Source: Candidatus Doudnabacteria bacterium RIFCSPHIGHO2_01_FULL_46_14 (lineage in GTDB: Bacteria; Patescibacteriota; Doudnabacteria; UBA920; 2-01-FULL-46-14). From it: a stretch of 43,339 nt of DNA. The position numbers and the translations under genes are program-made. The stretch lies in NCBI GenBank assembly GCA_001779925.1, contig MFEK01000016.1, positions 1 to 43,339 on the forward strand, written 5' to 3'. This document shows, piece by piece, positions 277 to 43,339 of the stretch. The first letter of the stretch is position 1. Every line of letters begins with the position of its first letter. A model generated the notes under the pieces. The model had not been told where the DNA came from, did no database searches, and saw nothing but the letters and a program-made list of their open reading frames with translations.

Positions 277-598
277 GACCCCGCTCTGCTCAAAAATGAG
301 CTAGCTTTGCGAAAGATATTTTTTATAATGGTCATCTTTCAAAACCATCCAAATTTCATTGGAAATTGACGTATTTTGACCCCGACTGAAACGTCGGGGC
401 ATTCCTATCACTATTCAGTTGCCAAAGAGCGCTTTATAATCGTCCGCCGTCAGCGGATTTCGGCGACAAAAAACACGCTTTACCAAATGCGTGTACATAT
501 CCCCCTAACACACGGATTATTTAGGTAGTGCTTGTTTAATAGTCTCCTCTCCCGATTGATCGGGATTTGTAAAAAAGCTTAATTATAAAGGTAAAATA

Positions 599-29750: not shown

Positions 29751-29837
29751 TGGTGCCGCCGGTCGGAGTTGAACCGACATACCCTTGCGGGCGTCAGCTC
29801 CTAAAGCTGATGTGTCTGCCAATTTCACCACGGCGGC
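29751..29837 (-). tRNA. tRNA-Leu(TAG), CCA encoded
   Basis: Minus strand begins GCCGCCGTGGTGAAATTGGC; the anticodon arm TCAGC-TTTAGGA-GCTGA gives TAG (Leu). The long class II variable arm CGCCCGCAAGGGTATG is present, the T loop is GGTTCAACTCC, and the acceptor GCCGCCG/CGGCGGC pairs fully, followed by ACCA. The 5' half overlaps the end of the GIY-YIG gene by 44 nt. Confidence 0.95.
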
Positions 29838-30072: not shown

Positions 30073-30088
30073 AACGATTTTTATTTTT

Positions 30089-30144
30089 GGTCCTAAACCT
30101 GTGCGCCTGCCGGCAGGCAGGTATGCCAATTCCGCCACTCGCCC
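30089..30144 (-). pseudogene. Broken tRNA-Leu 5' half with a palindrome in its D arm
   Basis: Reads GGGCGAGTGGCGGAATTGGC-ATAC on the minus strand, then CTGCCTGCCGGCAGG, then CGCACAGGTTTAGGACC. This is the 5' half of a tRNA-Leu: acceptor GGGCGAG, D arm, and anticodon loop TTTAGGA. A 15-nt palindromic insert interrupts the D arm, and the sequence stops in the 3' strand of the anticodon stem. No matching 3' half (variable and T arms, CTCGCCC) is found in the next 250 nt. It therefore cannot be a functional tRNA. Confidence 0.8.
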
Positions 30145-30146
30145 CC

Positions 30147-30250
30147 CAACTATGCGGGGTAAATCTGCTTGCCCGACTGAAATTTGCAAAGCAAATTTGG
30201 GCGGGCCTTTCGCCACTTTACCCGCCTAACTGCATGAGCAGTTGGGACGT
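30147..30250. repeat. Inverted repeat region next to the broken tRNA-Leu
   Basis: CCCAACTATGCGGGGTAAA at the left is complemented by TTTACCCGCC...CAGTTGGG at the right, with GCCCG/CGGGC and AAATTTGC/GCAAATTT inner arms. It has the GGCGGGC flavour of the dispersed modules. Confidence 0.6.
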
Positions 30251-30292: not shown

Positions 30293-30321
30293 TTGACAAT
30301 TCCGCCCAAAAGTGCTAGGAT
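30293..30321 (+). promoter_or_regulatory. Candidate promoter of accessory operon A
   Basis: TTGACA (30293-30298), 17-nt spacer ATTCCGCCCAAAAGTGC, then TAGGAT (30316-30321); TGC makes an extended -10. Start near 30328, leader about 250 nt. Confidence 0.7.
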
Positions 30322-30490
30322 TGGTGGTCAATAATGATCCCAAATTTGATACACTAAAAAACCAGCTTTTCTCGCAGGAAAGAATCAGCAAATGTGCCGG
30401 TTCTCTCCGGCTAGAGAAGAGAAAAAAATCCCTAGCCTGAACTTTAAAAACTGAAAATAATGGATCAATTCTTTCTTCCCTAACCGATGC

Positions 30491-30545
30491 AGTTACAACC
30501 TGCGTCCGGCAAGCGATTTTCGTTTTCCGAGCGCAGGTTGTAACT
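30491..30545 (+). promoter_or_regulatory. 14-bp inverted repeat in operon A leader
   Basis: AGTTACAACCTGCG (30491-30504) and CGCAGGTTGTAACT (30532-30545) are perfect complements around a 27-nt loop. It is 30 nt upstream of the first ATG, just before the ribosome site (AGAAAGGA). It could be an operator, an mRNA hairpin that hides or exposes the ribosome site, or part of a riboswitch-like fold; the sequence cannot say which. Confidence 0.6.
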
Positions 30546-30575
30546 AACTGCAAAAACGGAAAGAAAGGAAAAAGT

Positions 30576-30881
30576 ATGGAAAAATCGGAAGACACGGGCA
30601 GACCATACACCGGTTATGTTATCGGATCACGACCAACTCCAGGTGGCCCAATTTGGCGCCTGAGAATTGAGACTGGTCCAAAGCTGACCGGCGAGAGCGT
30701 GACAATTTTGCGAAGCAGCACGCCTCCTGACATTAAGGAGACGGCATTTGCGAAGTTCAATGTCACGACCATTGGTAAGCCCCCCAACGATCAAGACTTC
30801 GCGGTCAATGTTATTTTAACGACCCGCGACAGGCAAACAACAAATGGAACGGAACAAAAGGAAGAAAAGGAGACGAAATGA
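30576..30881 (+). CDS. Small protein of unknown function, first gene of accessory operon A
   Basis: 101 residues, no signal or membrane segment. The first 75 residues look like a small beta-rich domain (YTGYVIGSRPTPGGPIWRL, GESVTILRSSTP); the tail is Lys/Glu-rich (QKEEKETK). No family is recognised. Its 3' end overlaps the next gene by 4 nt (ATGA), so it is translationally coupled to the membrane protein that follows and may be its soluble partner. Confidence 0.75.
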   Translation: MEKSEDTGRPYTGYVIGSRPTPGGPIWRLRIETGPKLTGESVTILRSSTPPDIKETAFAKFNVTTIGKPPNDQDFAVNVILTTRDRQTTNGTEQKEEKETK

Positions 30882-32575
30882 GTATGGAAGAGATTCGGAA
30901 TGACGAAATTATGCAGGATTCGGACGGGGTAGTTCTCGCCCAGATTACCGCCGCGATCAGCGACATCAACACAAAAACCGTACCGAGCATGGTAGCCAAC
31001 TACGCCGGCAAGGATAGCTGGTCACTGACTTTCACGAGACTCGCGGACGATTATCGAATCGTCTGGGAAGGATACCTGACAACGTTTGCCGAGATGCGCG
31101 CCGACCGCCGCGGACGAGTCATTGAAGCGCTAACCCGCGCCGAGGAACTCCGCACCCGTCTGCAGACTGGCATTAACAACGAAAACACCCGTCTGCTAAC
31201 CATCCTGAAAGAATCGCTCGCATCTGCCTGCCTTACCCGCCGCAAAAAGCTGGAAACAGCGCAGTTGGCAGCCGAAAGCCCGGCGAGCGAACCAACGGAA
31301 AAGGTTGAGATACCAACGGATGAACCGAAAGCACCGGAACCTCAGCCTGCTCCTCCGGTGGTTGACCTCGACTCGTCGCAACAGCAGCTCGCGCGCATCA
31401 ACGTGGAACTCGCCGGTGATGAGAAAGCACATGTCGACCTGCCGAAACGGACGCAGAAAGCCGATAATTTCATGGCAGCGATGGTGCTTCTCGGGTTTGC
31501 AGGCATTGCCATCGCGGTCGAAGTTCTCTCGGGCGGGTATGATATGTGGCGGGTCATGAGCAACCCACGAATGGCGTGGGGATTCACGGCAGCGTTTCAG
31601 ATTTTGCCGGTGATTCTTGCGTTTTTCCTAGCCGGGCCATTCAAGCGCTCCCACACGCACAACCTAGCCAAGACACGGTTCCGGTCGTTGTACTCGAAAG
31701 GTCATCCGCAGGGATACAGAGTCGGCGAATTTGAGGATACAGCCCTTCTCAAGATCTTAGGCTGGCCTTTCATTGGACTGACTCTATTCCCGGTTATCTA
31801 CCGGCTGTATGTTGCCACAACCCAGGATTTCGGGACAGCCGGGTTTGTATCTGCACTGGCCGGGTTCTTCGTTACTCTTACGGCGTTCGGCGTCAAATAC
31901 GCTATGTCCAAAAGATATACGGACGAGCAGTACGAGCGCCTGGCGGAAAGAAAAAAGGCAGCAAAGATTGCCGAAGACGAAGAAAAAAAAGTCAAAGCTC
32001 AAGTGAAAGCCGAAGCCGCAGCCAAAGCTAGACAAGAAGAGGAAGAAAGGAAGGAGGCCGAAGCCATGGCCGCCGCTCTCCCGAAACCCATTATTCGCAC
32101 TCCCCAGGAGGAATTTGACCAGTCCTTCAACGCGGCCGTCGCTGCTTACAGGAACGGGGTCAGTGCAAAGCTACAAATTGCGGGTGCGAATATCGAAAGC
32201 CGAGAAACAGCGCGGCTCGAGATTGTAGCGCTTGCCAAGCAACGCAATGAGGTTCGGGGAGAACTCAGGGAAGGCTTCTACCATTCCTGCATCGCAGTCA
32301 TGGATGGCGTCCAGGATACGCATCACGTAAAGCGAGCTCATATCCAATTCGGTAACGGCAAGGCCAGCGAGTATGACTATCTAATGTCATTCTTCGACGC
32401 CGCCGTGAAACTGCCGGATGACGAGAAGGAGATGGCTCAAATCCGTGATGGCGAGATCGAAATCTCGCTGGATGATCCAACCGCGGGAGTTACAGTGATT
32501 GAGGACCTCATGGACGAGGCCATCGCAGCCACTGCCCGCAAAACCATCGTTCGTCCCGCAAACGCGGTCAACTAG
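30878..32575 (+). CDS. Large membrane protein with four helices and long soluble arms, unknown family
   Basis: 565 residues. N-terminal helical region (about 1-130) and Glu/Pro linker (about 130-165), then a helical segment, four hydrophobic helices at about 198-218, 236-254, 291-312 and 322-343, a highly charged coiled coil (about 345-405) and a C-terminal soluble domain of about 160 residues. Between helices 2 and 3 lies a conserved-looking FRSLYSKGHPQGYRVGEF segment. No family is recognised. A strong ribosome site (AAGGAGACGAA) precedes the ATG. With the small protein upstream and the VWA-like protein downstream it probably forms a membrane complex. Confidence 0.85.
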   Translation: MSMEEIRNDEIMQDSDGVVLAQITAAISDINTKTVPSMVANYAGKDSWSLTFTRLADDYRIVWEGYLTTFAEMRADRRGRVIEALTRAEELRTRLQTGINNENTRLLTILKESLASACLTRRKKLETAQLAAESPASEPTEKVEIPTDEPKAPEPQPAPPVVDLDSSQQQLARINVELAGDEKAHVDLPKRTQKADNFMAAMVLLGFAGIAIAVEVLSGGYDMWRVMSNPRMAWGFTAAFQILPVILAFFLAGPFKRSHTHNLAKTRFRSLYSKGHPQGYRVGEFEDTALLKILGWPFIGLTLFPVIYRLYVATTQDFGTAGFVSALAGFFVTLTAFGVKYAMSKRYTDEQYERLAERKKAAKIAEDEEKKVKAQVKAEAAAKARQEEEERKEAEAMAAALPKPIIRTPQEEFDQSFNAAVAAYRNGVSAKLQIAGANIESRETARLEIVALAKQRNEVRGELREGFYHSCIAVMDGVQDTHHVKRAHIQFGNGKASEYDYLMSFFDAAVKLPDDEKEMAQIRDGEIEISLDDPTAGVTVIEDLMDEAIAATARKTIVRPANAVN

Positions 32576-32584
32576 GAGGCGAGT

Positions 32585-33874
32585 ATGAAAAAAATCAAGA
32601 TTCCGACGCCTGTGGTTGTCCGCAAGGGCGAGCCACAGGGGACCAAAAAGATAGCACCACCCCCATCGTCAAACGGGACCAGTGCCCAAGCTGCGGTCAC
32701 GGCCAACCCAGTAAAAACTATCCCACCCGACCCGCAGCCCCAGTCTCGAGTTATCGAGGTCGAGGAAACGCGAACCGTGGACAGAATCAAGATTCGCGAA
32801 ACATCGACTCCTCCTCCCGCTCCAGAGTTCTCAGAGGTACCAACTGGCGGCGGGATTTGGAAGTACGTAGCGGGCGTAATATTCGCCGTGATCGTGGTGG
32901 CTATACTGGCCGCCGTGTTTCACAACATCTCCACTGAGAACAGGAGCTTCCGTTCCGAGCTGAAACAACTGATGTTCACACGCGACATTCTGACCGGCAA
33001 AAGCGATCCAATTCCGGATCTTTTTACACCGGAACAGATCGCCCGATACAACCCAGGTCAAGGTGACGGCTTTGATGCAAAGTTCGTTATCAATAACGAT
33101 CCTCGAAAAAACTTCGGGACTACAGAGGAGATTTTCACTCTGCCGATATGGGACCGCAAGAACGAGGAAGAACGCCGTACCCAGGTCGCCACAGCCCATG
33201 GCAATTTTCTAAAATGGGTAAGCGAGAAATACCTAATCGCTCTGTCGTTCAAAGAGTCTGTAGAAATCGGGCTCGATGATACTGAAGGCGTTTCAGAATC
33301 GCTGGCGGAATTTGTCCGGCGCAATCTGGAACTTGAGGAGGTCAAAGAAAAACTCATCGAGTCGAAGAACGACACGCGGCTTGCCTTCTTCCGGATTTCC
33401 GATTCCAACGCTCTGACATTCCGGCGGTTCGAAATCAAAGCCGGCGATGAAGACACTGTGAACCAAGTCTGGGAGGACGGCCTGACCTGGCTACTCGAGT
33501 CAGAGGAGGCACGCTCAAGGAAGGACGAAAGTTCGATCGCGACCGGGCTGTTCAATTTCCTGAAGAGAAATAATGAGATCCGGAAACGGAAGATCATTAT
33601 ATTCTCGGATGGTATGGAAAACAGTCGGCTGGAAACGACGACTTTCTATCCAGTAACCCAGACGGCACGGATCGTCACGGAAACGAACTGGCCAAAGCTG
33701 GATGAACAGATCCAGAAGGTCCAAGAGTTTCCTGACCTGACACGCGCGCAGGTCAAATGGTTCATGCCGCCGCTACGGGCCGTGTTTTATAACAACGTTA
33801 AGGCTTACTGGCAGCACGTGCTAGAGCAAGCCTGCGACTGCGACGGCGCGCCGCAAGTGGAGGTCATCCGCTAG
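32585..33874 (+). CDS. Single-pass membrane protein with VWA-like C-terminal domain
   Basis: 429 residues. A disordered Pro/Lys-rich segment (about 1-90), one transmembrane helix (about 92-113), then a large outside domain. K336 begins KIIIFSDGMENS, the DG-x-x-N pattern of a VWA strand and MIDAS-like loop, and the flanking FLKRN...RKRK region looks VWA-like. The earlier DxSxS motif is not visible in canonical form, so metal binding is uncertain. Two cysteines near the end (EQACDCDGAP) may chelate or pair. It starts 9 nt after the previous stop behind AGGAGGCGAGT. It is the last gene of operon A. Confidence 0.8.
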   Translation: MKKIKIPTPVVVRKGEPQGTKKIAPPPSSNGTSAQAAVTANPVKTIPPDPQPQSRVIEVEETRTVDRIKIRETSTPPPAPEFSEVPTGGGIWKYVAGVIFAVIVVAILAAVFHNISTENRSFRSELKQLMFTRDILTGKSDPIPDLFTPEQIARYNPGQGDGFDAKFVINNDPRKNFGTTEEIFTLPIWDRKNEEERRTQVATAHGNFLKWVSEKYLIALSFKESVEIGLDDTEGVSESLAEFVRRNLELEEVKEKLIESKNDTRLAFFRISDSNALTFRRFEIKAGDEDTVNQVWEDGLTWLLESEEARSRKDESSIATGLFNFLKRNNEIRKRKIIIFSDGMENSRLETTTFYPVTQTARIVTETNWPKLDEQIQKVQEFPDLTRAQVKWFMPPLRAVFYNNVKAYWQHVLEQACDCDGAPQVEVIR

Positions 33875-33915
33875 ACAATCAAAAATCCCAAGGAGGGGAT
33901 TGAAGTAATACTTGG

Positions 33916-33957
33916 AAAGGAGAGCAGAAACGACGATGTTTCTCTCTCCTTTTCTTT
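33916..33957 (+). terminator. Terminator of accessory operon A
   Basis: AAAGGAGAG (33916-33924), bulged C, AGAAAC, loop GACGAT, GTTTCT, CTCTCCTTT (33944-33952), then TCTTTTT. 15 bp in all. Confidence 0.85.
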
Positions 33958-33970
33958 TTGTCCGGAAAAC

Positions 33971-33999
33971 TTGATTTTCACCCAAAAATTTGCTATAAT
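33971..33999 (+). promoter_or_regulatory. Candidate promoter of the small-gene transcription unit
   Basis: TTGATT (33971-33976), 17-nt spacer TTCACCCAAAAATTTGC, then TATAAT (33994-33999) with TGC just upstream. The start would be near 34006, about 30 nt before the first ATG. Confidence 0.65.
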
Positions 34000-34034
34000 T
34001 ACTGTAGATAAATTAAGCCTTAACGATACAAAAT

Positions 34035-34202
34035 ATGTTTAGAAAAAAAGAACAATCACTCGGCGATTATCTGAGAGCAGACAGTGGTCCGACCGCGGAA
34101 ACAACTCCGGAAAGATCAGTGGACCAAATCGCCACAGAACGCATGCAAATGATCAAGGCAAAAGCGACCGGTTTTAAAAGATCGCATGCTAGATTACGGT
34201 AG
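34035..34202 (+). CDS. Small basic helical protein
   Basis: 55 residues (MFRKKEQSLGDYLRADSGPT...KATGFKRSHARLR). A mid-protein Glu/Asp-rich turn is followed by a basic tail. It is too short for a domain search by eye and may be a cofactor or leader peptide. Its end overlaps the next gene by 17 nt, so coupling is likely. No good ribosome site is seen, but the promoter lies just upstream. Confidence 0.6.
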   Translation: MFRKKEQSLGDYLRADSGPTAETTPERSVDQIATERMQMIKAKATGFKRSHARLR

Positions 34203-34539
34203 CCGGTTCGCGAAATTCGTTCTAACCGGTGATGTGCGAGCAAAAAAAACCGCGCATCATGTCAGTGAAAAAACCAGAGAGCTTCACGCGGCTGGAGTAG
34301 ACAGAATCGGACAAGTTACAGAAAATGCCAAAAATTGGGCTGACAAAAAGGTCCAAGGTGTAGAAAATAGAATCGGCTCTGGCATTAAAACCTATGAAAT
34401 TGCCAGAGATTCTGTAAAACATGGCTTTACCGAAATGAAAAGCTTTGCCGGTAACCAGAGAGCTATGGAACAGAAGAGAGCGGAACTTATGAAACAACTC
34501 GCAGAACTAAACGCGCAAATGGGAGAAAGCAATGCCTAA
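34186..34539 (+). CDS. Helical protein, membrane- or scaffold-associated candidate
   Basis: 117 residues, almost wholly alpha-helical and charged, with hydrophobic heptads (KTAHHVSEKTRELHAAGVDRI, NAKNWADKKVQGVENRI) and a C-terminal LMKQLAELNAQM coiled-coil segment. No signal, no recognised family. It starts inside the previous gene (overlap 17 nt) and ends inside the next (8 nt), so all three are coupled. The neighbouring small genes point to an oligomeric coiled-coil complex. Confidence 0.75.
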   Translation: MLDYGSRFAKFVLTGDVRAKKTAHHVSEKTRELHAAGVDRIGQVTENAKNWADKKVQGVENRIGSGIKTYEIARDSVKHGFTEMKSFAGNQRAMEQKRAELMKQLAELNAQMGESNA

Positions 34540-34768
34540 CCAAAAAGATTTACAAAAACAACGAGATGAACTAAAACAACAGCTGGCAGCAGTTGATCAG
34601 CAGCTTGATGCTATGAAGAAATTGGAAGACACAATGGCCCAGGCTGAACAGCAATTCGATTCAGAAATGCAGGCCAAAGAAAAAGAGGTGGAGACAGTCT
34701 ACAAAGAAGAGACAGACAAACTTAACGCCGCAATGCTGGATGACGCCCGGCAAGCCCTAAAAGATTAA
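34532..34768 (+). CDS. Small coiled-coil protein
   Basis: 78 residues with near-continuous Lys/Gln/Glu heptads (KDLQKQRDELKQQLAAVDQQ and MKKLEDTMAQAEQQ). It overlaps the previous gene by 8 nt. The terminator at 34820 ends the unit. Very low hydrophobicity suggests a soluble parallel coiled coil. No family is recognised. Confidence 0.75.
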   Translation: MPNQKDLQKQRDELKQQLAAVDQQLDAMKKLEDTMAQAEQQFDSEMQAKEKEVETVYKEETDKLNAAMLDDARQALKD

Positions 34769-34819
34769 ATCCAGCCATTTTGGTAAAGTGCTGGATAAAT
34801 TTTTCTGAAAAAGTCCCTC

Positions 34820-34848
34820 AAAAACCCCGCTAGGATAGCGGGGTTTTT
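34820..34848. terminator. Bidirectional terminator shared by the small-gene unit and hepT
   Basis: AAAAACCCCGCT (34820-34831), loop AGGAT, AGCGGGGTTTTT (34837-34848), a perfect 12-bp stem with A and T runs on both sides. The stop codon and last residues of hepT lie inside it (34830-34848), so the toxin's terminator overlaps its own coding end. Confidence 0.9.
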
Positions 34849-35165
34849 GATTGGAGCGCGGCTTCGAGTTTGGGCAAATCATGTTTAATGACTTGCCATA
34901 CGGCTCGATTATTTATTCTAAAATATTCATGAATGACTCTATTCCTCAATCCAACAACGTCATGCCATGGTATGCTTGGATAACGCTTTAGAAAATCATC
35001 AGAAAGCTTGTTGGCTGCTTCTCCTATAATTTCCAAAGAACGAATGATAGCCAGCCGATGCAATTTATCCGTCAAGAACTTTTCATAATCCAAATTCGCC
35101 GTAAAAGATTCAATATCATTGATTGATTCCAAAATATGACTTTTATATAAATTATCTTTTCCCAT
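34830..35165 (-). CDS. hepT: HepT-like toxin (HEPN RNase) of a type VII-like toxin-antitoxin pair
   Basis: 111 residues, all-helical. The HEPN catalytic motif is R74-NRVI-H79-E-Y81 (RX4HXY), complete. HepT toxins are metal-independent RNases kept inactive by AMPylation through MntA. The gene overlaps mntA by 14 nt; the antitoxin is upstream and translated first. Its end forms part of the terminator. Confidence 0.92.
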   Translation of the reverse strand: MGKDNLYKSHILESINDIESFTANLDYEKFLTDKLHRLAIIRSLEIIGEAANKLSDDFLKRYPSIPWHDVVGLRNRVIHEYFRINNRAVWQVIKHDLPKLEAALQSKTPLS

Positions 35166-35637
35166 ATATTGGGACTAGGTCTTTTTCTACTTGCGGTTTT
35201 ATCATAGGATGAAGTTCATCTTCTGTTGCTAAATCCGTCTTGGTGCCGAAAGCGTCTGTTAACTCATTCTCCAAATGAATTATATCGAGCAAGCTCTTTT
35301 CGTTAGCGCTCTTTCCAAAACGCACTATTAAGTCCACGTCACTATCGGGCCCGGCTTCCCCTCGCGCATAAGAACCAAAAATCCCAGCGAACTCCACATC
35401 ATTTTTTTTGAGAATGGGAATGGCGCGTTTTTTGATTTCCTCCAAAGTAAGAATAGATTTGCCAGTGGCCGGAAAAGGGGCGGTGCTGACCTCTTTTAAT
35501 AGCTCTGGGTTGCTTTTGCGAACAAACCGCAGGACAGCGCGCAAAAACTCGCTACGGTTGGCAAACCCAAAGCTTTTGGTGGTTTTGTCAACGAATTGGG
35601 CTTGTTCTTCTGTTAAGCTTATATTGACTGTTTTCAT
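35152..35637 (-). CDS. mntA: MntA-like antitoxin with N-terminal ribbon-helix-helix domain
   Basis: 161 residues. The N-terminal 1-42 look like a ribbon-helix-helix DNA-binding domain (MKTVNISLTEEQAQFVDKTT, then ANRSEFLRAVLRFVRK). Residues about 66-150 are a minimal nucleotidyltransferase with GSX10DXD: G88-S89 and D100, D102 (FAGIFGSYARG, DSDVDLIVRF). MntA normally lacks the RHH part, so this is a fusion. It should AMPylate HepT and repress its own promoter. The promoter (35647-35676) contains a CAAAC/GTTTG inverted repeat suited to an RHH dimer. Confidence 0.92.
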   Translation of the reverse strand: MKTVNISLTEEQAQFVDKTTKSFGFANRSEFLRAVLRFVRKSNPELLKEVSTAPFPATGKSILTLEEIKKRAIPILKKNDVEFAGIFGSYARGEAGPDSDVDLIVRFGKSANEKSLLDIIHLENELTDAFGTKTDLATEDELHPMIKPQVEKDLVPIYGKR

Positions 35638-35646
35638 GATATTTTA

Positions 35647-35676
35647 AGTATAGCAAACTTTGGCAAGGTTTGTCAA
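35647..35676 (-). promoter_or_regulatory. mntA-hepT promoter with overlapping operator
   Basis: Minus-strand TTGACA (complement of 35671-35676), 18-nt spacer and TATACT (complement of 35647-35652) with TGC just upstream. The inverted repeat CAAACTTTGGCAAGGTTTG (35654-35672) lies across the spacer, a good place for autorepression by the RHH domain of the MntA fusion. Confidence 0.65.
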
Positions 35677-35702
35677 GATATAAATGCTGTCTCAACCCAG
35701 CA

Positions 35703-35731
35703 TTGACAAAACCCCCAAAATCTGCTAATAT
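35703..35731 (+). promoter_or_regulatory. Candidate promoter of accessory operon B
   Basis: TTGACA (35703-35708), 17-nt spacer AAACCCCCAAAATCTGC, then TAATAT (35726-35731), extended -10 TGC. It faces away from the mntA promoter, the two -35 boxes being about 26 nt apart. The leader is about 270 nt. Confidence 0.7.
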
Positions 35732-35785
35732 ATCAAGTCAATAAAGATAGCTCAGAGAACAGGACCTTTGGGTAACGATTTATTC

Positions 35786-35868
35786 CCTCCTTTTATTCCT
35801 CCCCCTCGATGGGGCACGCTTCGTCCGAGCGAAGGCGAGGCGAGGAGGTTAGGTGGGGGTGATAAAAA
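35786..35868. repeat. CTC-rich palindromic element in operon B leader
   Basis: CCTCCCCCTCGATGGGG, then a module with GCACGCTTCGTCCGAGCGAA, then AGGAGGTTAGGTGGGGGTGAT. Matches the element inside smc (24005-24094) at both ends. It lies in the leader, not in a gene. Confidence 0.75.
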
Positions 35869-36008
35869 AGGGTTCTATTCTGTGAGCTAAAGGAAACTTT
35901 GGTTCTTGTCCTTTTACAGTTCAATAGTTCAAGTAAGTAAGTTCAAAAACAAACATTTCGTCGCTTCGTTGCGTCGCAATCTCGCGCGTGAAGCAGGAGG
36001 TCACCAAC

Positions 36009-37538
36009 ATGAACGGTACAGTAGTTAGAGTCAACGCTGAACAACATTGGGCTTTTGTAAGGCCTGATGATGGCAGCGAAGACGTATGGCTTGATCTGAA
36101 CCTTCTAGCCGGCCAACAAGCCCGGAGAGGAGATCAGATCGAATTTGATGCTGGGGAGGCGCCTGGCGAAGGCCGGCGGCGACCTGCATTAAACCCCCGA
36201 AACATTCGACCTGCAAATCCGCGCGATGCGGCCCGCCGCGATCTTGATCACGGACGCGACCGAGACCAACGAGGCGCCAGAGGACCCTTGAGCGTTTCTG
36301 GCAAATTCGGCAGAGCGCTCGAGATCACTTTACCGGCGACTGAGACCGATCCGTTCGAAAGAACGAATCTCTATCTGCCGGTGACCATTCAAGTGGTGAG
36401 AGGCACGAGACCGGCTCCTGGACTCCGAGTAGAACTCAAATACTTGGGCGTACCCGTGACCGACGAGCCGATTACCACGACCCACAACAGCGGCGAAGCG
36501 TTCTTTATGGCCCCGTTTGAGGTAGCTACCGCGTTTGCGGAATTCACCGCCACAGTGCTAGTACCCGACGAACGGCCAGTGATCACCAACATCCCATGGG
36601 ACAGAACCAGGGACGAAGTGAGACCTGCGACAACCATGCAGGTTACCAAGCCTGGCAACGATCTGTTGCAAGTCATCATCAAGGACGAGCACAGGCCGAT
36701 TGCCGGTTCGATAAACCTTCTGGTGATGGCGCCAGCTGACGGCAACAAAGTTCAGTTTCGCGACCTTCATGCCAACATGAACTTTAACGGCTCAAGGTTG
36801 AATGAGGGGAAACTGACCGGCAACTTCTTGTATCAAGTCACATGCACCGAGACCTGCGTCATCGTGGTTCAAAACCGCGAAGGACTGCAGGCTGAGGTTA
36901 TGACCTTCGAGAAGGAACCGCCGGCAGTTGCTGATAAGATCTTTGCCGAGCGTCTCGAAACGGATCATCTCCAAGTCACTACAAAAAAAGGAGACAAGAT
37001 CGCTCCGGGCAAGATCAACCTGATCGTCACGCCGGATTCCGCGACAGTGGAAATCCGGAATGCGGCGACCGGGGCAATCCTTGCCACGCGGATAGACATT
37101 CAGATTCAAGGTGAGGTCATCTACCAGATCAAAAGTGATATGACCTGCACCATCATCGCCCAGCTCTGCGACACTGGCGCGTCCAAGGCTGTGACCTTTG
37201 AAAAAGTCCAAGAGGCAAGGGGCTTCAAAGTCACGCCGGAAGACGCAATCATTCGATCCGCAAGCAACAAATATTCGCTGGACATTCTCACTTTCAAAGG
37301 TGAGAAGAAGACACCTGTCCAGGACACTTTGTTGTTCCGGTCTCACGATGGCGCGGTGACGATTACCGACAAACGCACGAACACGGTGCAGGCAACGGAT
37401 GTCGAGTTTTGCAATTTGCAAACCGACGCGGACGGCTGGAAATTCATTGAGGTTACGTTCCGTGGCCTCAAGCGCAATATCAGCCTCACAAATGCCGCTG
37501 GCACCCAAACCGCAAACAAAACGTTGCAGTTCAAATAG
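36009..37538 (+). CDS. Cold-shock-like domain fused to tandem beta domains, unknown family
   Basis: 509 residues from ATG 36009, chosen for the AGGAGG ribosome site; seven upstream codons are open but unsupported. Residues 1-65 resemble a cold-shock domain (MNGTVVRVNAEQHWAFVRPD, VWLDLNLL, GDQIEFDAGE), but the RNA-binding aromatic face is only partly kept. Residues about 66-95 are Arg/Pro-rich. The rest (about 95-509) is beta-rich, perhaps four Ig-like or filamin-like domains (LYLPVTIQVVRGTRPAPG and TMQVTKPGNDLLQVIIKDE), with no signal peptide. It is first gene of operon B and probably cytoplasmic. The fold assignment is by pattern only. Confidence 0.7.
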   Translation: MNGTVVRVNAEQHWAFVRPDDGSEDVWLDLNLLAGQQARRGDQIEFDAGEAPGEGRRRPALNPRNIRPANPRDAARRDLDHGRDRDQRGARGPLSVSGKFGRALEITLPATETDPFERTNLYLPVTIQVVRGTRPAPGLRVELKYLGVPVTDEPITTTHNSGEAFFMAPFEVATAFAEFTATVLVPDERPVITNIPWDRTRDEVRPATTMQVTKPGNDLLQVIIKDEHRPIAGSINLLVMAPADGNKVQFRDLHANMNFNGSRLNEGKLTGNFLYQVTCTETCVIVVQNREGLQAEVMTFEKEPPAVADKIFAERLETDHLQVTTKKGDKIAPGKINLIVTPDSATVEIRNAATGAILATRIDIQIQGEVIYQIKSDMTCTIIAQLCDTGASKAVTFEKVQEARGFKVTPEDAIIRSASNKYSLDILTFKGEKKTPVQDTLLFRSHDGAVTITDKRTNTVQATDVEFCNLQTDADGWKFIEVTFRGLKRNISLTNAAGTQTANKTLQFK

Positions 37539-37546
37539 GAGAAAAA

Positions 37547-38197
37547 ATGGCAGACGCTGTTGGATCGAAAATGATCGACAAGATACTCCATATGGCCGAG
37601 GAGGTCAGCGCTTCCTTCATGGGGGACTGGCTAGCAAAGATGCTCTGGGGTACGTATACGAAACCCGCGGACATTCAGCTCATCAAGAAAGCGGCGGATC
37701 TCATGGCTGAAGGGAAATCCAAAGAAGCTAGAGATCTTCTGGAAGCCCGACCTGGTGGCTGGGGAGACGCGGACGAGGAGATTGGTATCGAGGATCTCAC
37801 AGGACTGATAACGGCCAGGGTAATCACCCAGGCTCAAGCAGTCGCTGTTGGGACGTATCTCGGCAACCTCCCTCAGCATGTACGAACCAAGTTCCGGCTC
37901 GCGCACTGCACGCAGAAGGATTCCGAAATCCGGATGCGCAAGCTCACGGAATTCGCCCTGCTTCCCAACGATGCAGATCGCGAAGCGTTTCTGCGCGGAT
38001 GGGGTTACTACGATCGGAATGCTTTCGAGCAAACCGTTCATGACCTTAACGCCCGCGCCGAGGCTGCTAACACAGTAATGGATGTAAATGCCGCTACCCT
38101 GCGAGCGCGAATCAACGGAGGCGTTGGTCTCGGTGATATTTTCGCCGGACACAACGTCGTCGAACGACTCATCAACTTCTTCAACCCCCTGCGGTAG
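37547..38197 (+). CDS. Helical protein of unknown function
   Basis: 216 residues, helical throughout, with aromatic-rich stretches (MGDWLAKMLWGTYTKPADIQ) and no signal or clear membrane helix. The C-terminus contains GVGLGDIFAGHNVVERLINF. The ribosome site GGAGAAAAA lies 8 nt after the previous stop. The acidic N-half and the Ala-rich C-half may bind the membrane proteins downstream. No family is recognised. Confidence 0.75.
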   Translation: MADAVGSKMIDKILHMAEEVSASFMGDWLAKMLWGTYTKPADIQLIKKAADLMAEGKSKEARDLLEARPGGWGDADEEIGIEDLTGLITARVITQAQAVAVGTYLGNLPQHVRTKFRLAHCTQKDSEIRMRKLTEFALLPNDADREAFLRGWGYYDRNAFEQTVHDLNARAEAANTVMDVNAATLRARINGGVGLGDIFAGHNVVERLINFFNPLR

Positions 38198-38215
38198 CAG
38201 GAAGGAGCGCCAGTA

Positions 38216-38788
38216 ATGAATTTCACGCATATTCTTCTGTGGTTGCCTCGCGTGCTCCGCAACGGTGGATTGCATGCAGCGAGGTTTGGACAGGTTCACA
38301 TCGCCAAGACGATCTTTACGCTTCTCGTCGGGCTGTTCTTCAGCATTGTTGTCCTCGGCAGCGGTGTACTGATCGCGCGACTCGGTTACGGAATTAACTG
38401 GCCAAGCCTGATCACCGCCGGCAATTTCATCACTGCCTTTAGCGGAATGGTGGCGGGCGGATGGTTTATCTATTCGTTCACCCGCATCGGAACATTCGCT
38501 GAGGAGATAGTGATCGGCAACAGCGTCGGGCATCAATTGGTTCATGAAATAACTCGACCACTCCCAAGCACACCGGCGCAGTTGCCAATCGTGGTCACAC
38601 AAGAAATGGCTAACCAGATCATGAGAATCGCGGCCACTGTGTTCGCGGTTCTGACGGCGATGAGTATTGTTGCCAGTGTCTTTCCGGTTTACCGGAATCT
38701 GACGTGGTTGATGGTTGGAGTGATGATCATCATGTTCGGCGGATTCAGATACATGTCTTCAGCACTGAGAGGAGGTCAGCATGTCTAA
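38216..38788 (+). CDS. Membrane protein with about four helices, unknown function
   Basis: 190 residues. Hydrophobic helices at about 33-55, 67-90, 137-158 and 161-182 (TLLVGLFFSIVVLGSGVLIA and AATVFAVLTAMSIVASVFPV), with a short soluble loop (about 92-135). Strong ribosome site (AGGAAGGAG). It overlaps the next gene by 8 nt. It may be a membrane scaffold with 38781-39791. Confidence 0.8.
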   Translation: MNFTHILLWLPRVLRNGGLHAARFGQVHIAKTIFTLLVGLFFSIVVLGSGVLIARLGYGINWPSLITAGNFITAFSGMVAGGWFIYSFTRIGTFAEEIVIGNSVGHQLVHEITRPLPSTPAQLPIVVTQEMANQIMRIAATVFAVLTAMSIVASVFPVYRNLTWLMVGVMIIMFGGFRYMSSALRGGQHV

Positions 38789-39791
38789 TGCATCTAATTC
38801 TGGTTCCCCGAGCGCTACCCCAGTGGTTCATAGCAAACGGTTTTGGAAAACCGTCGGCGCCACGGTGCTATTCGTGGTTTACATCTCTGTTTTCCTAGTC
38901 CCCAAGCTCATCAATCAGCTCGGCGTCTACAGCGTGTTCAAGAGTGAGAAAGTAGTGAGTAAGCTGGAAACCCTGCAACAGCTGGAAAAAGCTGCTGAAG
39001 AAGCGAGAAAAAACGCTGCGGATCAACTCGCTGCTCTGATTCGAAAATACGGTGCTGAGCGCGTGAATCTCTTAGCGGCTGGTCGGGACCCTCAAGACCC
39101 AGAGATTCAGACTCTCAGTCGCAAGATTGCAGAGGCTGAAGCGCAACGACCCCTATACACGCCCCGAGTCCAGGTCGGCCCGACACTCAAAGACGACGCA
39201 TGTGGTCAGCTCGATAGTTTGCAAGTGTTCGCCGCATGGATCGCTTGGGTAGTGGTGATACTAGCAAGTCTGGCACTGATCTTTGTGGGGATCAAGAAAA
39301 AATCCCTGTTATGGACTATTGCCGGTCTCGCTACGATCGTGCTGACGCTTCTTTTCGGCGGAGATGTTACGAGGGAAGCTCTGGCTGACCCGCATCCAAA
39401 CGAGAAGTGTGTGCCGCCCGGGATGCCTTCGTCAGTCCCGCCAACAACACCCACGCCAGTCCCTCCAGTACCAACAACCCCTGCCACTCCGACTCCTGGC
39501 AGACTCGTTCTGACTGTTCACAACCGTATCGGCCGGGATGTATTCATCCACTGCCAGGATATTAGCGGCGCGGACGACGGACTGGCTGGGACCCGCAGGA
39601 TCAAACCAGGGTGGCATCAATGGGTGGATTTTATCAGCCCGGTGCCCTGCGAGATCAAGGACAGCGCGGGAGATGTAATGCCTGTCGTGACTGTCGCGCT
39701 CGATCCTGCTACCGGGACGAAAACCGAAACCGGTGCGCCGTTCACCGCCATCGCGCCACTTACGGCGAACCTGGAGGTGAACGTTAACTAA
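38781..39791 (+). CDS. Membrane protein with coiled coil and C-terminal beta domain, unknown function
   Basis: 336 residues. First helix about 23-42, a charged coiled coil (about 53-90, SKLETLQQLEKAAEEARKNA), then two helices at about 149-170 and 175-193. A Pro/Thr linker (about 210-236, PPTTPTPVPPVPTTP) leads to a C-terminal beta domain (about 238-336, RLVLTVHNRIGRDVFIHCQD) with several cysteines. The arrangement (soluble coiled coil, two helices, linker, outside beta domain) resembles an assembly factor or adhesin anchor, but no family is recognised. Strong ribosome site GAGGAGG. Last gene of operon B. Confidence 0.8.
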   Translation: MSNASNSGSPSATPVVHSKRFWKTVGATVLFVVYISVFLVPKLINQLGVYSVFKSEKVVSKLETLQQLEKAAEEARKNAADQLAALIRKYGAERVNLLAAGRDPQDPEIQTLSRKIAEAEAQRPLYTPRVQVGPTLKDDACGQLDSLQVFAAWIAWVVVILASLALIFVGIKKKSLLWTIAGLATIVLTLLFGGDVTREALADPHPNEKCVPPGMPSSVPPTTPTPVPPVPTTPATPTPGRLVLTVHNRIGRDVFIHCQDISGADDGLAGTRRIKPGWHQWVDFISPVPCEIKDSAGDVMPVVTVALDPATGTKTETGAPFTAIAPLTANLEVNVN

Positions 39792-39847
39792 CAATTTTTC
39801 GGAGGAAAGATTACGCGCTTTGGGAGGAGGCGCAAGCAAAAAAAAGA

Positions 39848-39888
39848 CCGGCGATTTCTCGATTTATGAGAATTCGCCGGCTTTTTTT
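39848..39888 (+). terminator. Terminator of accessory operon B
   Basis: CCGGCGATTTCTC (39848-39860), 7-nt loop, GAGAATTCGCCGG (39868-39880), one mismatch, then TTTTTTT (39882-39888). Confidence 0.9.
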
Positions 39889-39933
39889 ATTTCCAATCTA
39901 CCACTCCTGATCCGATTACGGATCATCCTCCCC

Positions 39934-39992: not shown

Positions 39993-40433
39993 CTATTCAT
40001 TATAAATCAAAATATTGGCAATGATCGTTACGATCGCGAAAGACAAAATCACCAGAACTACGCCGATGACTGCGTGCAGAATGGTTTTTTTCGCGCCCTC
40101 GGCCTGCTCTTCATTGCCGTGCGCGGTGATGTAACGGATCCCGCCGATGATTACGAACAGGACAGCGAGCAACCCCACGATCGCAAGCAAGATATTGATA
40201 ACCCCCAGAATCAATTCTGAGGCAGTGGTCGCTCCCGCGGGGCCGCAGGCACCCAAAAGATTTCTAATAATACCGCCGATGCCTGAACAGGCAAACTGGG
40301 AATTCGTTGGCACTGGTACCGGGTCGGTTTTATCAATGCAAAGAGTTCCGGTACAGCCCGGCACAGCTCCGGCAATAGCAGGAACTGTCAACAAAACGAC
40401 GGCAAAAATCAGAAAATAAAAAATCAGCTTCAT
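39993..40433 (-). CDS. T4SS pilin-like membrane protein (paralog 1)
   Basis: 146 residues. Signal peptide (about 1-22) with a cysteine-containing loop (PGCTGTLCID), then two hydrophobic helices separated by IGGIRYITAHGNEEQAEGAKKTILHAVIG, the signature shared by all six proteins in this array. This matches the pilin-like family often annotated as T4SS pilin (VirB2/TrbC-like) in CPR. It would insert in the membrane and may assemble into a secretion pilus. Its start overlaps the paralog upstream by 4 nt. Confidence 0.85.
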   Translation of the reverse strand: MKLIFYFLIFAVVLLTVPAIAGAVPGCTGTLCIDKTDPVPVPTNSQFACSGIGGIIRNLLGACGPAGATTASELILGVINILLAIVGLLAVLFVIIGGIRYITAHGNEEQAEGAKKTILHAVIGVVLVILSFAIVTIIANILIYNE

Positions 40434-40828
40434 ATTCCCCTAGCCCCGCCGAGCAGAACATTAGTAATGATTGTGATAATCGCGAATGACAGCACCACCA
40501 CAATCAGGCCGATTACAGCATGGGTCATGGTTTTTTTAGCTCCCTCCGCATTTTCCTCATTGCCCGCGGCCGTCACATACCGAAACCCGCCAATGATCAG
40601 AAACAGCACGGACAGGGACCCGACAACGAGCAGGAGGATTTGGATGACAGTCAGAATGAGCGCACCAAAACTCTGCGACCCAGCCGGTCCATCATTAAAA
40701 AAACATGGAACACTAATTATACCATCAGAGCAATAATCACCAAGGTCAGCCAGCGCCGCTCCAGGGAGCAAGATCACTGCCAGCAAAAGAAATAATTTCA
40801 CCAATAAAATTGTCATTGCTCTATTCAT
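40430..40828 (-). CDS. T4SS pilin-like membrane protein (paralog 2)
   Basis: 132 residues. Signal peptide (LFLLLAVILLPGAALA), a short cysteine pair (DYCSDGIISVPCFF), then the two helices around IGGFRYVTAAGNEENAEGAKKTMTHAVIG. It overlaps the genes on both sides by 4 nt, so translation is coupled. The two cysteines sit where paralog 1 has its pair, implying a disulfide at the outer side. Confidence 0.85.
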   Translation of the reverse strand: MNRAMTILLVKLFLLLAVILLPGAALADLGDYCSDGIISVPCFFNDGPAGSQSFGALILTVIQILLLVVGSLSVLFLIIGGFRYVTAAGNEENAEGAKKTMTHAVIGLIVVVLSFAIITIITNVLLGGARGI

Positions 40829-41223
40829 TCTGTAGGCACTCCTGTTCCCGGAGCGCCACCAATCAAAGCTTCGGAAATTATGAGAATAATCGCAAACGAC
40901 ATGATAATGATGACCAGCCCCCAGACCGCTGCTGTCATGGTGCTTTTGGCAGATTCAACCTTTTCTTCATTACCGCGGGACAGAATATATTTTATTCCGC
41001 CAACGACCAGGTAGACGACGGCAATGCTTCCTGCAACCAATAGCAGGACTTGAAGAACCGTGGCAATCAGCTGGCCAAAGGTTTGCGAGGTTGCCGGGGA
41101 CGAACCCGCAGAACCAAAACCGAACTTGCTGCCAATCGTGTTTTTGAAAAAATCGTTCAAAATGCCCTGCTGGGCAAGGACAAGACCAGCGGCAAAATTA
41201 TTCAATTTTTGTTTCAAGTACAT
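40825..41223 (-). CDS. T4SS pilin-like membrane protein (paralog 3)
   Basis: 132 residues from the ATG at 41223; 16 open upstream codons are repeat-derived and not used. There is no clear signal peptide; a helical N-terminus of about 35 residues is followed by the two-helix core around VGGIKYILSRGNEEKVESAKSTMTAAVWG. The C-terminus is extended (GGAPGTGVPTE). Absence of a cleavable signal differs from the other paralogs; insertion may rely on the first core helix. Confidence 0.8.
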   Translation of the reverse strand: MYLKQKLNNFAAGLVLAQQGILNDFFKNTIGSKFGFGSAGSSPATSQTFGQLIATVLQVLLLVAGSIAVVYLVVGGIKYILSRGNEEKVESAKSTMTAAVWGLVIIIMSFAIILIISEALIGGAPGTGVPTE

Positions 41224-41237
41224 TTCGTCTTTTATAC

Positions 41238-41310
41238 TTCCCTCCCCTTGCCGTGCCCGCCATAGCTTCAAGCGAAGGCTGGGATGGGGAGGGACTGAGG
41301 AAGGGGTGGC
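41238..41310. repeat. Module B/CTC-rich element in the pilin array, copy a
   Basis: CCCTCCCCTTGCCGTGCCCG, then CCATAGCTTCAAGCGAAGGCTGGGATGGGGAGGG (broken here by position only). It faces copy b head to head. Confidence 0.75.
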
Positions 41311-41323
41311 GTATGAAAATTAT

Positions 41324-41393
41324 TCACCCCACCTAACCTCCCGCATCCCAGCCTACACGCAAGGCTTCGGCGGGCAGGCAAAGGGGAGGAATA
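41324..41393. repeat. Module B/CTC-rich element in the pilin array, copy b
   Basis: CACCCCACCTAACCTCCCGC then CCAGCCTACACGCAAGGCTT and GGCGGGCAGGCAAAGGGGAGG. It has the arms of copy a in inverted orientation, so the pair can form a large cruciform. Confidence 0.75.
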
Positions 41394-41399
41394 AATACA

Positions 41400-41762
41400 C
41401 TACTTAACTGCGTTGGCTACCACTCTCACGATAACAAAGGAGAGAATGATTATCACGATACCGATTATCGCGTTGACAATGGCTTTTTTGCCAGCTTCCG
41501 CGGCTTCCTCGTTGCCCCCGGCGGTAATGTAGCGGAACCCGCCGACGATGAGGAAAATCACAGCCACCAAACCCGCGATAGACAGGAGAATGTTGATAAT
41601 CCTGACAAGCAAGGTGGTAAGATCAGTGTCACTGGCAACCCCTTTCCCTGTTGGATCTGGATCCGTGAACTGCGCGGAAACGGCTAAGGGAGACACGATC
41701 ATGACGAATACTGCTATGATGGCGAGAACATTGACGATTTTGACTAGATTGAGCTTTTTCAT
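41400..41762 (-). CDS. T4SS pilin-like membrane protein (paralog 4)
   Basis: 120 residues. Signal peptide (about 1-31, IAVFVMIVSPLAVSA), a short linker (QFTDPDPTGKGVAS), then two helices with VGGFRYITAGGNEEAAEAGKKAIVNAIIG. It is the shortest member and the simplest version of the family. No cysteines in the loop, unlike paralogs 1 and 2. Confidence 0.85.
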   Translation of the reverse strand: MKKLNLVKIVNVLAIIAVFVMIVSPLAVSAQFTDPDPTGKGVASDTDLTTLLVRIINILLSIAGLVAVIFLIVGGFRYITAGGNEEAAEAGKKAIVNAIIGIVIIILSFVIVRVVANAVK

Positions 41763-41825
41763 GTTTATTGATTATTTTTAATCAATTAATTATTAGATAA
41801 GTTTTGTTTCGACCTAGCAAAGTTT

Positions 41826-41905
41826 ATTCCTCTTAACTCTCGCCCTGGCGAGGGGAGAGTGCCCCGATCCGCCTTTGGCGGACGGGGGAGAGAGGTTTAC
41901 CTTAT
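41826..41905. repeat. CTC-rich element with TCCGCC module between paralogs 4 and 5
   Basis: CTCTTAACTCTCGCCCTGGC then GAGGGGAGAG, module TCCGCCTTTGGCGGA, then GGGGGAGAGAGGTTTACC. The TCCGCC...GGCGGA hairpin is like the one inside nusA. Confidence 0.7.
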
Positions 41906-41944
41906 GTTAAAGTATTATAACACAAATCGTCCAGAGGCTCAAAT

Positions 41945-42811
41945 CTAGGGCGAATTCTGCCCTGGTTCCAGGATAATAATCTGAAAATCTTTGGTTCCTG
42001 TCCGGCCGTTGCCAGTGGCCGTGATTCGCAAATTGTATGTGCCGGGTTCAGCGCTACTGCTCACGGTCCCATTTATCTGCGGCGGGTTGCTGCCGAAGGT
42101 TGTCAAGCCTAACCCGTCGGGCAATTGATCGCCGGTTAGTGCCCAGGTATACCCCCCGCCCGGCGCAGGGACAAAAGAGATACTGGCAACATCATCAATG
42201 CTATATGTTGGCGGATTGTTATTTACGACAACAATGAAAATATTGTTCGCTGGAGGCGGCCCAGGCGGCGGGGGAGGAGGCGGGAGTGGGGACGGCGAGA
42301 GTGAGGTGGTGGAAGCGCCGCCTGGAACACCCTGAACTACCAGATTGTTTATCATTGTTACAATCGCATAGGACATTATGATAATAATGAGACCGAGAAT
42401 GGCGCCACTTATGGTTTTTTTGGCTTTTTCCGTGGTCTCTTCATTGCCGCGGGCGGCAATGTATTGAAACCCGCCGATAATCAAAAACAGCAGGGCGATT
42501 GCTCCAGCAAAAAACAAGGCAATCTCAATTGCGCGAATAATAAGCGCGCCGAAATCCGGAATATCCACCAGGTACTGTTTTGCAGGATTGTTAATAACGC
42601 ATTGGCCATTAACCAAGGTAGTGTTCGGAGCGCAGCCACCTGCCGTTGCCCCGCTGCCATTGCCGCCGTCAGGACCGCCGCCTGTATTGCCGGCGCCACT
42701 GTTTTGACCTCCCCCGGTGTTTCCTGTCTGGCCAAAAACAACAGCTACTGCGGCAAAATTAACAAGCAGTAAAAAAATAATGAAGATAAATATTTTTGTC
42801 TTTTGTTTCAT
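41945..42811 (-). CDS. T4SS pilin-like membrane protein with C-terminal Ig-like extension (paralog 5)
   Basis: 288 residues from the ATG at 42811, chosen for the signal peptide (FIFIIFLLLVNFAAVAVVF); the frame is open further upstream. Then a Gly/Asn/Thr-rich linker (TGNTGGGQNSGAGNTGGGPDG), the two-helix core (IGGFQYIAARGNEETTEKAK), a Pro-rich linker and an Ig-like domain of the He_PIG type (about 200-282, WALTGDQLPDGLGL and INGTVSSSAEPGTYNLRI). This would place an Ig-like domain outside the cell, perhaps as a pilus tip or adhesin subunit. It lies 7 nt before the start of the previous gene's end at 42819. Confidence 0.85.
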   Translation of the reverse strand: MKQKTKIFIFIIFLLLVNFAAVAVVFGQTGNTGGGQNSGAGNTGGGPDGGNGSGATAGGCAPNTTLVNGQCVINNPAKQYLVDIPDFGALIIRAIEIALFFAGAIALLFLIIGGFQYIAARGNEETTEKAKKTISGAILGLIIIIMSYAIVTMINNLVVQGVPGGASTTSLSPSPLPPPPPPPGPPPANNIFIVVVNNNPPTYSIDDVASISFVPAPGGGYTWALTGDQLPDGLGLTTFGSNPPQINGTVSSSAEPGTYNLRITATGNGRTGTKDFQIIILEPGQNSP

Positions 42812-42818
42812 TTTCTGT

Positions 42819-43339
42819 TTAGACTCCTGAGAACAGGAGCCTCTGCACCCCGGAAATAATAGTAAAGGAAAGGACGGCAATGACAAATCCTATAACCGAC
42901 CATTTCAAACCGTTTTTGGCCTGCTCCAGACTCTCCTCATTTCCGGCAGCCGTAATATATCTGTACCCATAATAAACTATCATGAAAATCGTGACAATAC
43001 CGATCAGCCCGAGGATATTCACCATCACAAAATTGACCACGCTCCAGAAAAACCGCGGGTCAGCCGGCCCGGAAAGCGGCGAGTCAATCTTGTCCTTGGC
43101 CAGGTTGCTGCCGAAAATACCCGCGTCAAACCCGAGAATCTTGGCGGCCCCGGAAACAATGGTAAACGAGAGTATGGCCACGCAAAATCCGCCGACCGCC
43201 CAGGTGATGGATTCGCGCGCTTCTTTTATTGATTCCTCGTTTGTGGCAATGACGAGCTTGAATGCAGAAAACACGATAAACATCACTGCCGCAGTGCCGA
43301 TGATCGAGGAGAACAACTGAATCACGCGCACTACCAGGT
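42819..43339 (-). CDS. T4SS pilin-like membrane protein, duplicated core, cut by the window edge (paralog 6)
   Basis: At least 170 residues in the window; the frame stays open to the right edge, so the N-terminus is missing. Two tandem copies of the two-helix core are visible: FSAFKLVIATNEESIKEARESITWAVGGF and YYGYRYITAAGNEESLEQAKNGLKWSVIGF (each shown only as a pattern), so this is an internal duplication. The last helix ends FTIISGVQRLL. It is the first gene (5'-most) seen of the array and is followed by paralog 5 after 7 nt. Confidence 0.8.
   Translation of the reverse strand, partial: LVVRVIQLFSSIIGTAAVMFIVFSAFKLVIATNEESIKEARESITWAVGGFCVAILSFTIVSGAAKILGFDAGIFGSNLAKDKIDSPLSGPADPRFFWSVVNFVMVNILGLIGIVTIFMIVYYGYRYITAAGNEESLEQAKNGLKWSVIGFVIAVLSFTIISGVQRLLFSGV

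Follow-up and report, generated by a model that had tools for sequence, protein, structure and literature searches.

Operon B, the last of three plus-strand transcription units in a gene island next to a pilin array, is, judging from sequence comparison, the local form of an operon that recurs across Candidatus Doudnabacteria. Its genes are conserved in related genomes, its location is shared, its proteins are hypervariable, and its leader, like that of operon A upstream, combines a strong promoter with a boxA-like element. With confidence a little short of even, we propose that operon B is a Doudnabacteria-specific operon of three to five genes, hypervariable in sequence, that would specify an undescribed, envelope-spanning surface apparatus working with T4SS-type pilins, with operon A as its partner and with high transcription from strong promoters sustained by boxA and Nus factors. 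The window, namely the whole 43,339-nucleotide stretch analyzed here (G000:C16:1-43339), belongs to a 99%-complete genome of 1.08 Mb whose RNase III is 84-87% identical to that of its closest named relatives, MAGs of Candidatus Doudnabacteria.

A recurrent operon between ftsH and a pilin array

Matches to P7, the first protein of operon B, in other Doudnabacteria prompted a survey of the ftsH flank across the order (one MAG per species, several loci being cut by contig ends, with relatives' genes called by a simple caller of our own). The gap from ftsH/tRNA-Leu(tag) to a T4SS-type pilin array is filled in 14 of 33 complete gaps (3.2-10.5 kb) and nearly empty in the remaining 19 (0.2-1.1 kb). 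Operon B takes the form of a plus-strand series of three to five sizeable genes, with additional ones in loci that have an upstream module, and its gene order is maintained across genera. Displaced operon B copies, whole or partial, occur in G027, G037 and G023, each again beside a PF18895 pilin gene. A profile of g4, one of the protein families described below, searched against 380 genomes of the phylum, found Doudnabacteria only, plus one doubtful match. The original prediction had looked to co-occurrence in related CPR genomes, and this is indeed found: operon B in many Doudnabacteria, and the P2-P3 pair of operon A in one other genome.

In the window, the pilin array (39993..43331, minus strand) is convergent with operon B, and the three members tested match PF18895 (E 1e-11 to 7e-19). 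Upstream of operon A, a GIY-YIG gene (29794-30216) overlaps tRNA-Leu, as expected from the prediction of a tRNA-linked nuclease. We rejected tRNA-Leu as a recent integration site: it adjoins ftsH in all the filled loci inspected and likewise in G004, whose gap measures 0.97 kb, and is thus part of the core synteny.

Several minor features were noted in the flanks of other genomes. GIY-YIG-like ORFs apparently lie within, or immediately ahead of, the 16S rRNA genes of G038 (L159) and G009 (L163), in the manner of homing endonuclease inserts. Between tRNA-Leu and operon B stand large genes on the minus strand, neither matching Pfam, at L010:4628-6031 (G005) and L031:6556-8169 (G024). In L037 (G003, a family member), the ftsH flank carries type IV pilus-like genes (PilM/N/O-like, pilin), the island being absent there.

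Between G005 and G024, ftsH identity is 0.87, versus 0.14-0.28 for the five operon B families g1-g5. Over all pairs, island proteins show median identities of 0.18-0.23, figures to be read with the caution that identities below 20% are close to alignment noise, and a rank correlation with FtsH of rho -0.04 to 0.21. Such a pattern would result either from very fast diversification of the island proteins or from exchange of alleles at the site. For operons A and B, atypical composition was rejected as a sign of recent import, their GC3 (0.57-0.62; 0.51 for P1) being host-like and near that of ftsH (0.60).

The operon B proteins

Operon B is preceded by the promoter TTGACA-N14-TGCTAATAT (35703..35731, plus strand), of a type found before most relatives, and ends with a GC-rich hairpin followed by a T run (39848..39890, plus strand; end at about 39888-39890). 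Pairwise and profile searches assigned its products and their relatives to families g1 (P7; 15 proteins), g2 (P8; 9), g3 (P9 and relatives, in several subfamilies), g4 (9) and g5 (8). The genes belong mostly to unknown families and occur together, in keeping with the predicted undescribed set of membrane-protein genes and at odds with the contrary outcome, namely different known families with no co-occurrence.

P7 (36009..37538, plus strand; 509 aa) starts at ATG 36009 after a GGAGG sequence, not at GTG 35988, and combines an N-terminal cold-shock-like OB domain with a C-terminal Ig-like beta domain (residues 404-509). The cold-shock match is below the family cut-off (E 0.009, 16.3 bits versus 27; 24.9 bits for the G032 relative), and the AF2 model has a five-strand N-terminus and a C-terminal domain block of pLDDT 71-92 with Ig-type Foldseek matches. 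While the g1 C-terminus is an Ig-like domain, the N-terminus is cold-shock-like in the window, G012, G032, G038 and G040, and basic, rich in RG/K/N, in G005, G009, G020, G024, G027 and G046. This swap suggests that the g1 N-terminus is conserved as a nucleic-acid-binding part. No transmembrane segment or signal peptide is predicted in g1.

The second protein, P8 (37547..38197, plus strand; 216 aa), is soluble and helical like the rest of g2 and has relatives in 8 other genomes. P9 (38216..38788, plus strand) is a polytopic membrane protein corresponding to the N-terminal half of g3; it matches the G005 g3 protein (BLASTP E 2e-21) and also a G005/G046 profile. Full g3 proteins are polytopic and include a coiled coil and a last transmembrane segment. 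By transmembrane prediction, P10 (38781..39791, plus strand) consists of a transmembrane segment, a coiled coil, a transmembrane hairpin, a Pro/Thr linker and a C-terminal domain, an arrangement like that of the C-terminal half of g3 with an exposed domain added. A weak resemblance of P10 to the g3 C-terminus and to g4 is suggestive of homology, and the g3/g4 boundary seems to have shifted in the window, more evidently for P9 than for P10, where the match is weak. Family g4 combines an N-terminal anchor with an exposed region, and g5 carries a signal peptide; one g5 member has an STN match under the Pfam cut-off.

In one locus only, that of G007, the protein in the g3 position ends in a domain of the lytic transglycosylase type (SLT, E 1.1e-26) that contains the ES motif. 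As the one finding that hints directly at biochemistry, it puts the G007 version at the cell wall. We discarded a TrbC hint on P10 (E 0.45) along with further Pfam matches below threshold.

Operon A and the upstream slot

Operon A is preceded by a perfect extended promoter, TTGACA-N14-TGCTAGGAT (30293..30321, plus strand), and its leader contains a long hairpin (30489..30555, plus strand); the predicted RNA fold has a z score of -6.0, and none of 200 shuffled sequences was as stable. The operon encodes P1 (30576..30881, plus strand; 101 aa), a small predicted beta protein; P2 (30878..32575, plus strand; 565 aa), with four predicted transmembrane helices and long soluble helical arms; and P3 (32585..33874, plus strand; 429 aa), with one transmembrane helix (residues 87-118) and a C-terminal domain with VWA-like motifs. 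Its terminator is an imperfect hairpin at about 33917-33960.

The original prediction of a VWA-like P3 holds at the level of motifs: D231-x-T233 and FSDG (340-343) are present, and both are conserved in the G043 relative. P3 has no match to a Pfam family, a PDB sequence, a profile or a fold (Foldseek). The domain alone gave an AF2 model of pLDDT 46 without Foldseek match; profile comparison with true VWA proteins aligned only the FSDG strand, and alignments of P3 and of P8, used as profiles against the PDB, returned noise only.

A P1 relative occurs in G013, immediately upstream of that genome's operon B. The P2-P3 gene pair turned up in a single further genome, G043, where it lies away from ftsH and has no operon B nearby. 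Other genes occupy the slot ahead of operon B in G038 and G021; they encode a zinc-ribbon/FHA-like protein (the FHA assignment being made by eye), a VWA protein and a Ser/Thr kinase; a PP2C was shown in G038. Operon A, rarer than operon B, is thus one of several modules that fill the upstream slot. Of this signaling set the window has only P3 with its VWA-like motifs; a search found no kinase or phosphatase in it.

The middle unit and the toxin-antitoxin pair

All ten predicted plus-strand ORFs are present between TTGACA at 30293 and the terminator at about 39888. Three of them form a middle unit, M, with promoter TTGATT-N14-TGCTATAAT (33971..33999, plus strand), a leader of only about 35 nt without boxA, and a terminator made of a symmetric GC-rich hairpin and a T run (34818-34850). 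They are P4 (34035..34202, plus strand; 55 aa; GC 0.458), the helical P5 (34186..34539, plus strand; 117 aa; GC 0.441) and the coiled-coil protein P6 (34532..34768, plus strand; 78 aa; GC 0.435). The promoters and terminators predicted for the three units all exist, those ending B and M being the GC-rich hairpins. Strong Shine-Dalgarno sequences, described as the rule, precede P1-P3 and P6-P10 but neither P4 nor P5.

The toxin-antitoxin pair reported inside the island is confirmed. It comprises a HepT-like RNase toxin (34830..35165, minus strand; PF01934, E 2.7e-30) and an MntA-type nucleotidyltransferase antitoxin (35152..35637, minus strand; NF047752, E 1.4e-13), whose N-terminal ribbon-helix-helix-like stretch (residues 4-42) matches TIGR02606. 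The pair is a separate inverted insert. GC3 is 0.39-0.42 in unit M and 0.34 in hepT, versus 0.60 in ftsH; unit M and the HepT/MntA pair differ in composition and look like later insertions. No relative of unit M was detected among the fetched loci. As P2-P3 and operon B are found separately in other genomes, and unit M stands apart in composition and leader, the original prediction that all three units make up one system is not supported. A layout resembling this small-helix unit was seen in G037 (L029:9637-18794), where 1707-aa, 772-aa and small coiled-coil proteins are encoded directly upstream of the displaced operon B.

Promoters and boxA-like elements in the leaders

Perfect TTGACA-N14-TGNTANNAT promoters are rare, numbering 29 in 480 kb of flank DNA, and 23 of these lie on the island strand within the gap, where base-shuffled sequence would yield 0.1. 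The genome of the window contains 13; a boxA follows within 600 nt at those of operons A and B and at none of the other 11. Operon leaders are mostly 150-340 nt long and often structured, and they match no Rfam family.

Nine rRNA leaders of Doudnabacteria, their boxA sites chosen by eye, served to train a boxA matrix. Its validity is indicated by recovery of the organism's own rRNA boxA, GCTCTTTGGCAACTGAATA (412..430, minus strand; score 22.4). The latter lies in the 16S rRNA leader, which extends up to about 627 (minus strand; promoter 627-599); the 5' end of the gene occupies the first ~195 bases (minus strand) and continues off the contig start. An SSU search of the G000 genome gave no match, although the contig begins within this gene.

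The matrix detects GAACTTTAAAAACTGAAAA in the operon A leader (30439..30457, plus strand; 18.2) and GTCCTTTTACAGTTCAATA (CTTTTACA) in that of operon B (35908..35926, plus strand; 17.6), each with a shuffle p of 0.003 and both above all 1760 random windows. The exact boxA core occurs in the genome only at 30442 and 35911, in these two leaders; as this pattern was drafted with both sites in view, it is the matrix that provides independent evidence. When 19 island leaders were scanned, the Fisher p over all of them was 8e-11, and 8 exceeded the 99th percentile of random windows; most had been selected by promoter match prior to the boxA test, the boxA idea itself coming from reading these very leaders. 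In G021, a boxA precedes both the signaling module and operon B. Against this, the leaders of G007, G012, G005, G024 and G020 contain no scoring match, and an unexplained match at window position 20190 (18.4) illustrates that chance can yield similar scores. The one Nus factor searched, nusB, exceeded its cut-off in 37 of the order's 49 genomes, among them G000. A boxA-controlled unit is characterized by an rRNA-type boxA in a transcribed leader and by Nus factors in the cell; the former and nusB are present, from which we infer antitermination. The claim of a coregulated membrane system is accordingly supported for operons A and B, which share the perfect extended promoter and the boxA leader, and not for unit M, which has neither.

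A spacer motif of the three window promoters, CCCAAAA-TGC, was rejected as a common operator, comparison with relatives identifying it as a variant of the general strong promoter. The operon B leader also contains a GC-rich palindromic stretch (35768-35875; cctccccctcgatgggg...ggtgggggtg) that looks like a dispersed repeat.

Relation to known systems

Non-rRNA targets of boxA/Nus antitermination are few: suhB (PMC5725501, which lists also the gamma-proteobacterial predictions prsA, rpsJ and ParE-like toxins), as well as CRISPR arrays and lambdoid nut sites (PMC12691694, citing eLife 2020 e58182 for the CRISPR-array boxA). Operons A and B resemble these targets in having an rRNA-type boxA in a non-rRNA leader, a strong promoter and NusB in the genome. 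They differ in being long, in encoding hypervariable membrane proteins and in that different genera have the element at one and the same locus.

The adjacent PF18895 pilins, the membrane proteins and the VirB1-like lytic transglycosylase domain of one locus are reminiscent of type IV secretion loci. However, no Pfam match to a VirB4/VirD4-type NTPase or core channel protein was obtained with P1-P10 or the relatives scanned, no VirB11 or other VirB homologue was found in the operons, and the VirB2-type pilins are outside the operons themselves, in the adjacent array and beside the displaced copies. Capsule and O-antigen cassette loci have variable content between fixed flanks, with alleles that do not track the species tree. 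The operon B site shares these properties; unlike those loci, it has no glycosyltransferase or polysaccharide export genes and its order of protein families is conserved.

Interpretation

One could envision an apparatus in which g1, a cytosolic protein that joins an Ig-like domain to an N-terminus of nucleic-acid-binding type (a cold-shock domain or an RG/K-rich tail), and the helical adaptor g2 would sit on g3. The polytopic, coiled-coil g3 would carry or pair with the anchored, exposed g4, and g5 would be secreted in many species. Operon A would provide an upstream partner module, with its membrane-anchored VWA-like protein, in the slot that two relatives use for kinase/VWA/FHA-like signaling genes. 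Both operons would be transcribed at a high level from their strong extended promoters; boxA in the long leader would load Nus factors, so that premature (Rho) termination would not stop RNA polymerase on its way through the structured leader and the rest of the long operon. The proteins would then be abundant and might assemble into a complex acting in contact or pilus assembly. A surface role is plausible, since in Saccharibacteria, another CPR group, episymbiosis is reportedly driven by type IV pili (PMC12206443).

Some findings weigh against this proposal. The link with the pilins is positional only, the VWA fold of P3 is at motif level, the homology of P10 to g3/g4 is weak, the SLT domain is found in a single locus, and the five leaders named above contain no scoring boxA match. 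Operons A and B encode no NTPase, nuclease, known secretion component or known effector; the lack of an NTPase and of a known effector counts against both a self-powered secretion machine and a classic defense system. We are more doubtful of a stronger version, in which two separate operons with swappable contents form one Nus-controlled regulon that builds a contact surface beside the pilins through rRNA-style boxA antitermination. Our proposal as a whole would extend boxA antitermination to long membrane-protein operons, and it predicts that transcripts of operons A and B rank with the cell's most abundant mRNAs. The ways in which CPR bacteria attach to and exploit their hosts are still being worked out, and only a small number of gene sets specific to one of their orders have been delimited; the combination of conserved architecture and allele-like sequence turnover at one address offers a concrete set for testing.

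A rather unlikely alternative is that the island is a hypervariable biological-conflict or defense system, in which a sensor/adaptor membrane complex with a VWA protein (and, in relatives, a kinase and phosphatase) diversifies under pressure from phages or competitors. TerY-P and T6SS threonine-phosphorylation modules consist of a kinase, PP2C, VWA and FHA proteins. The slot of operon A in G038 and G021, with kinase, VWA and zinc-ribbon/FHA-like proteins and, in G038, PP2C, bears a likeness to them, unlike the window, which has the VWA-like motif protein without kinase or phosphatase. The extreme divergence, the mosaic gene relationships, the HepT/MntA pair and the patchy filled or empty site would also suit a conflict system. 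However, PADLOC defense models match only the separate MntA protein, apart from weak noise, and there is no effector nuclease or NTPase. No relatives were found of P2, P3, P10 or the P8 profile in viral contigs, of P3 in genome contigs, of P2 or P7 among phages, or of P3 or P8 among plasmids. The fixed core position by the pilins and the SLT domain are better suited to an envelope apparatus.

It is also unlikely that the genes simply encode rapidly evolving structural proteins of a coat or adhesin type (a surface layer or proteins for attachment), with no machine function and an incidental pilin neighbor. Very strong expression signals, anchored and secreted proteins, an Ig-like domain and hypervariability would all be expected of a coat; yet g1, with its cold-shock or RG-rich N-terminus, lacks a transmembrane segment and signal peptide, a polytopic g3 and a helical cytosolic g2 would be unexpected, and displaced copies retain the pilin neighbor.

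Quite improbable is the view that unrelated units share one variable chromosomal site, their promoters and boxA-like matches being generic for strong genes. Unit M and the toxin-antitoxin pair are clearly separate, and P2-P3 occurs without operon B nearby in G043. Against a chance assembly stand the restriction of boxA to A and B among the 13 perfect promoters, the paired boxA leaders of G021 and the conservation of operon B gene order across genera. A phage or integrative-element relic with a nut-like boxA is hardly credible: boxA acts in lambdoid phages (PMC12691694) and the island is patchy, but PHROG gave nothing beyond coiled-coil noise of low score, the searches of phages, plasmids and IMG/VR found no match, GC3 of A and B is host-like (about 0.61 versus 0.60 for ftsH) and the tRNA-Leu border is core synteny.

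Aside from the island, strong boxA-like matches were noted at L053 oriented 10936 (minus strand, G004; 21.3) and L050 oriented 10340 (minus strand, G010; 14.5). Both precede small genes on the minus strand close to lspA-like ORFs and are possibly another protein-coding boxA target. The counterpart of this site in G000 (promoter G000:C16:50532) is without such a match.
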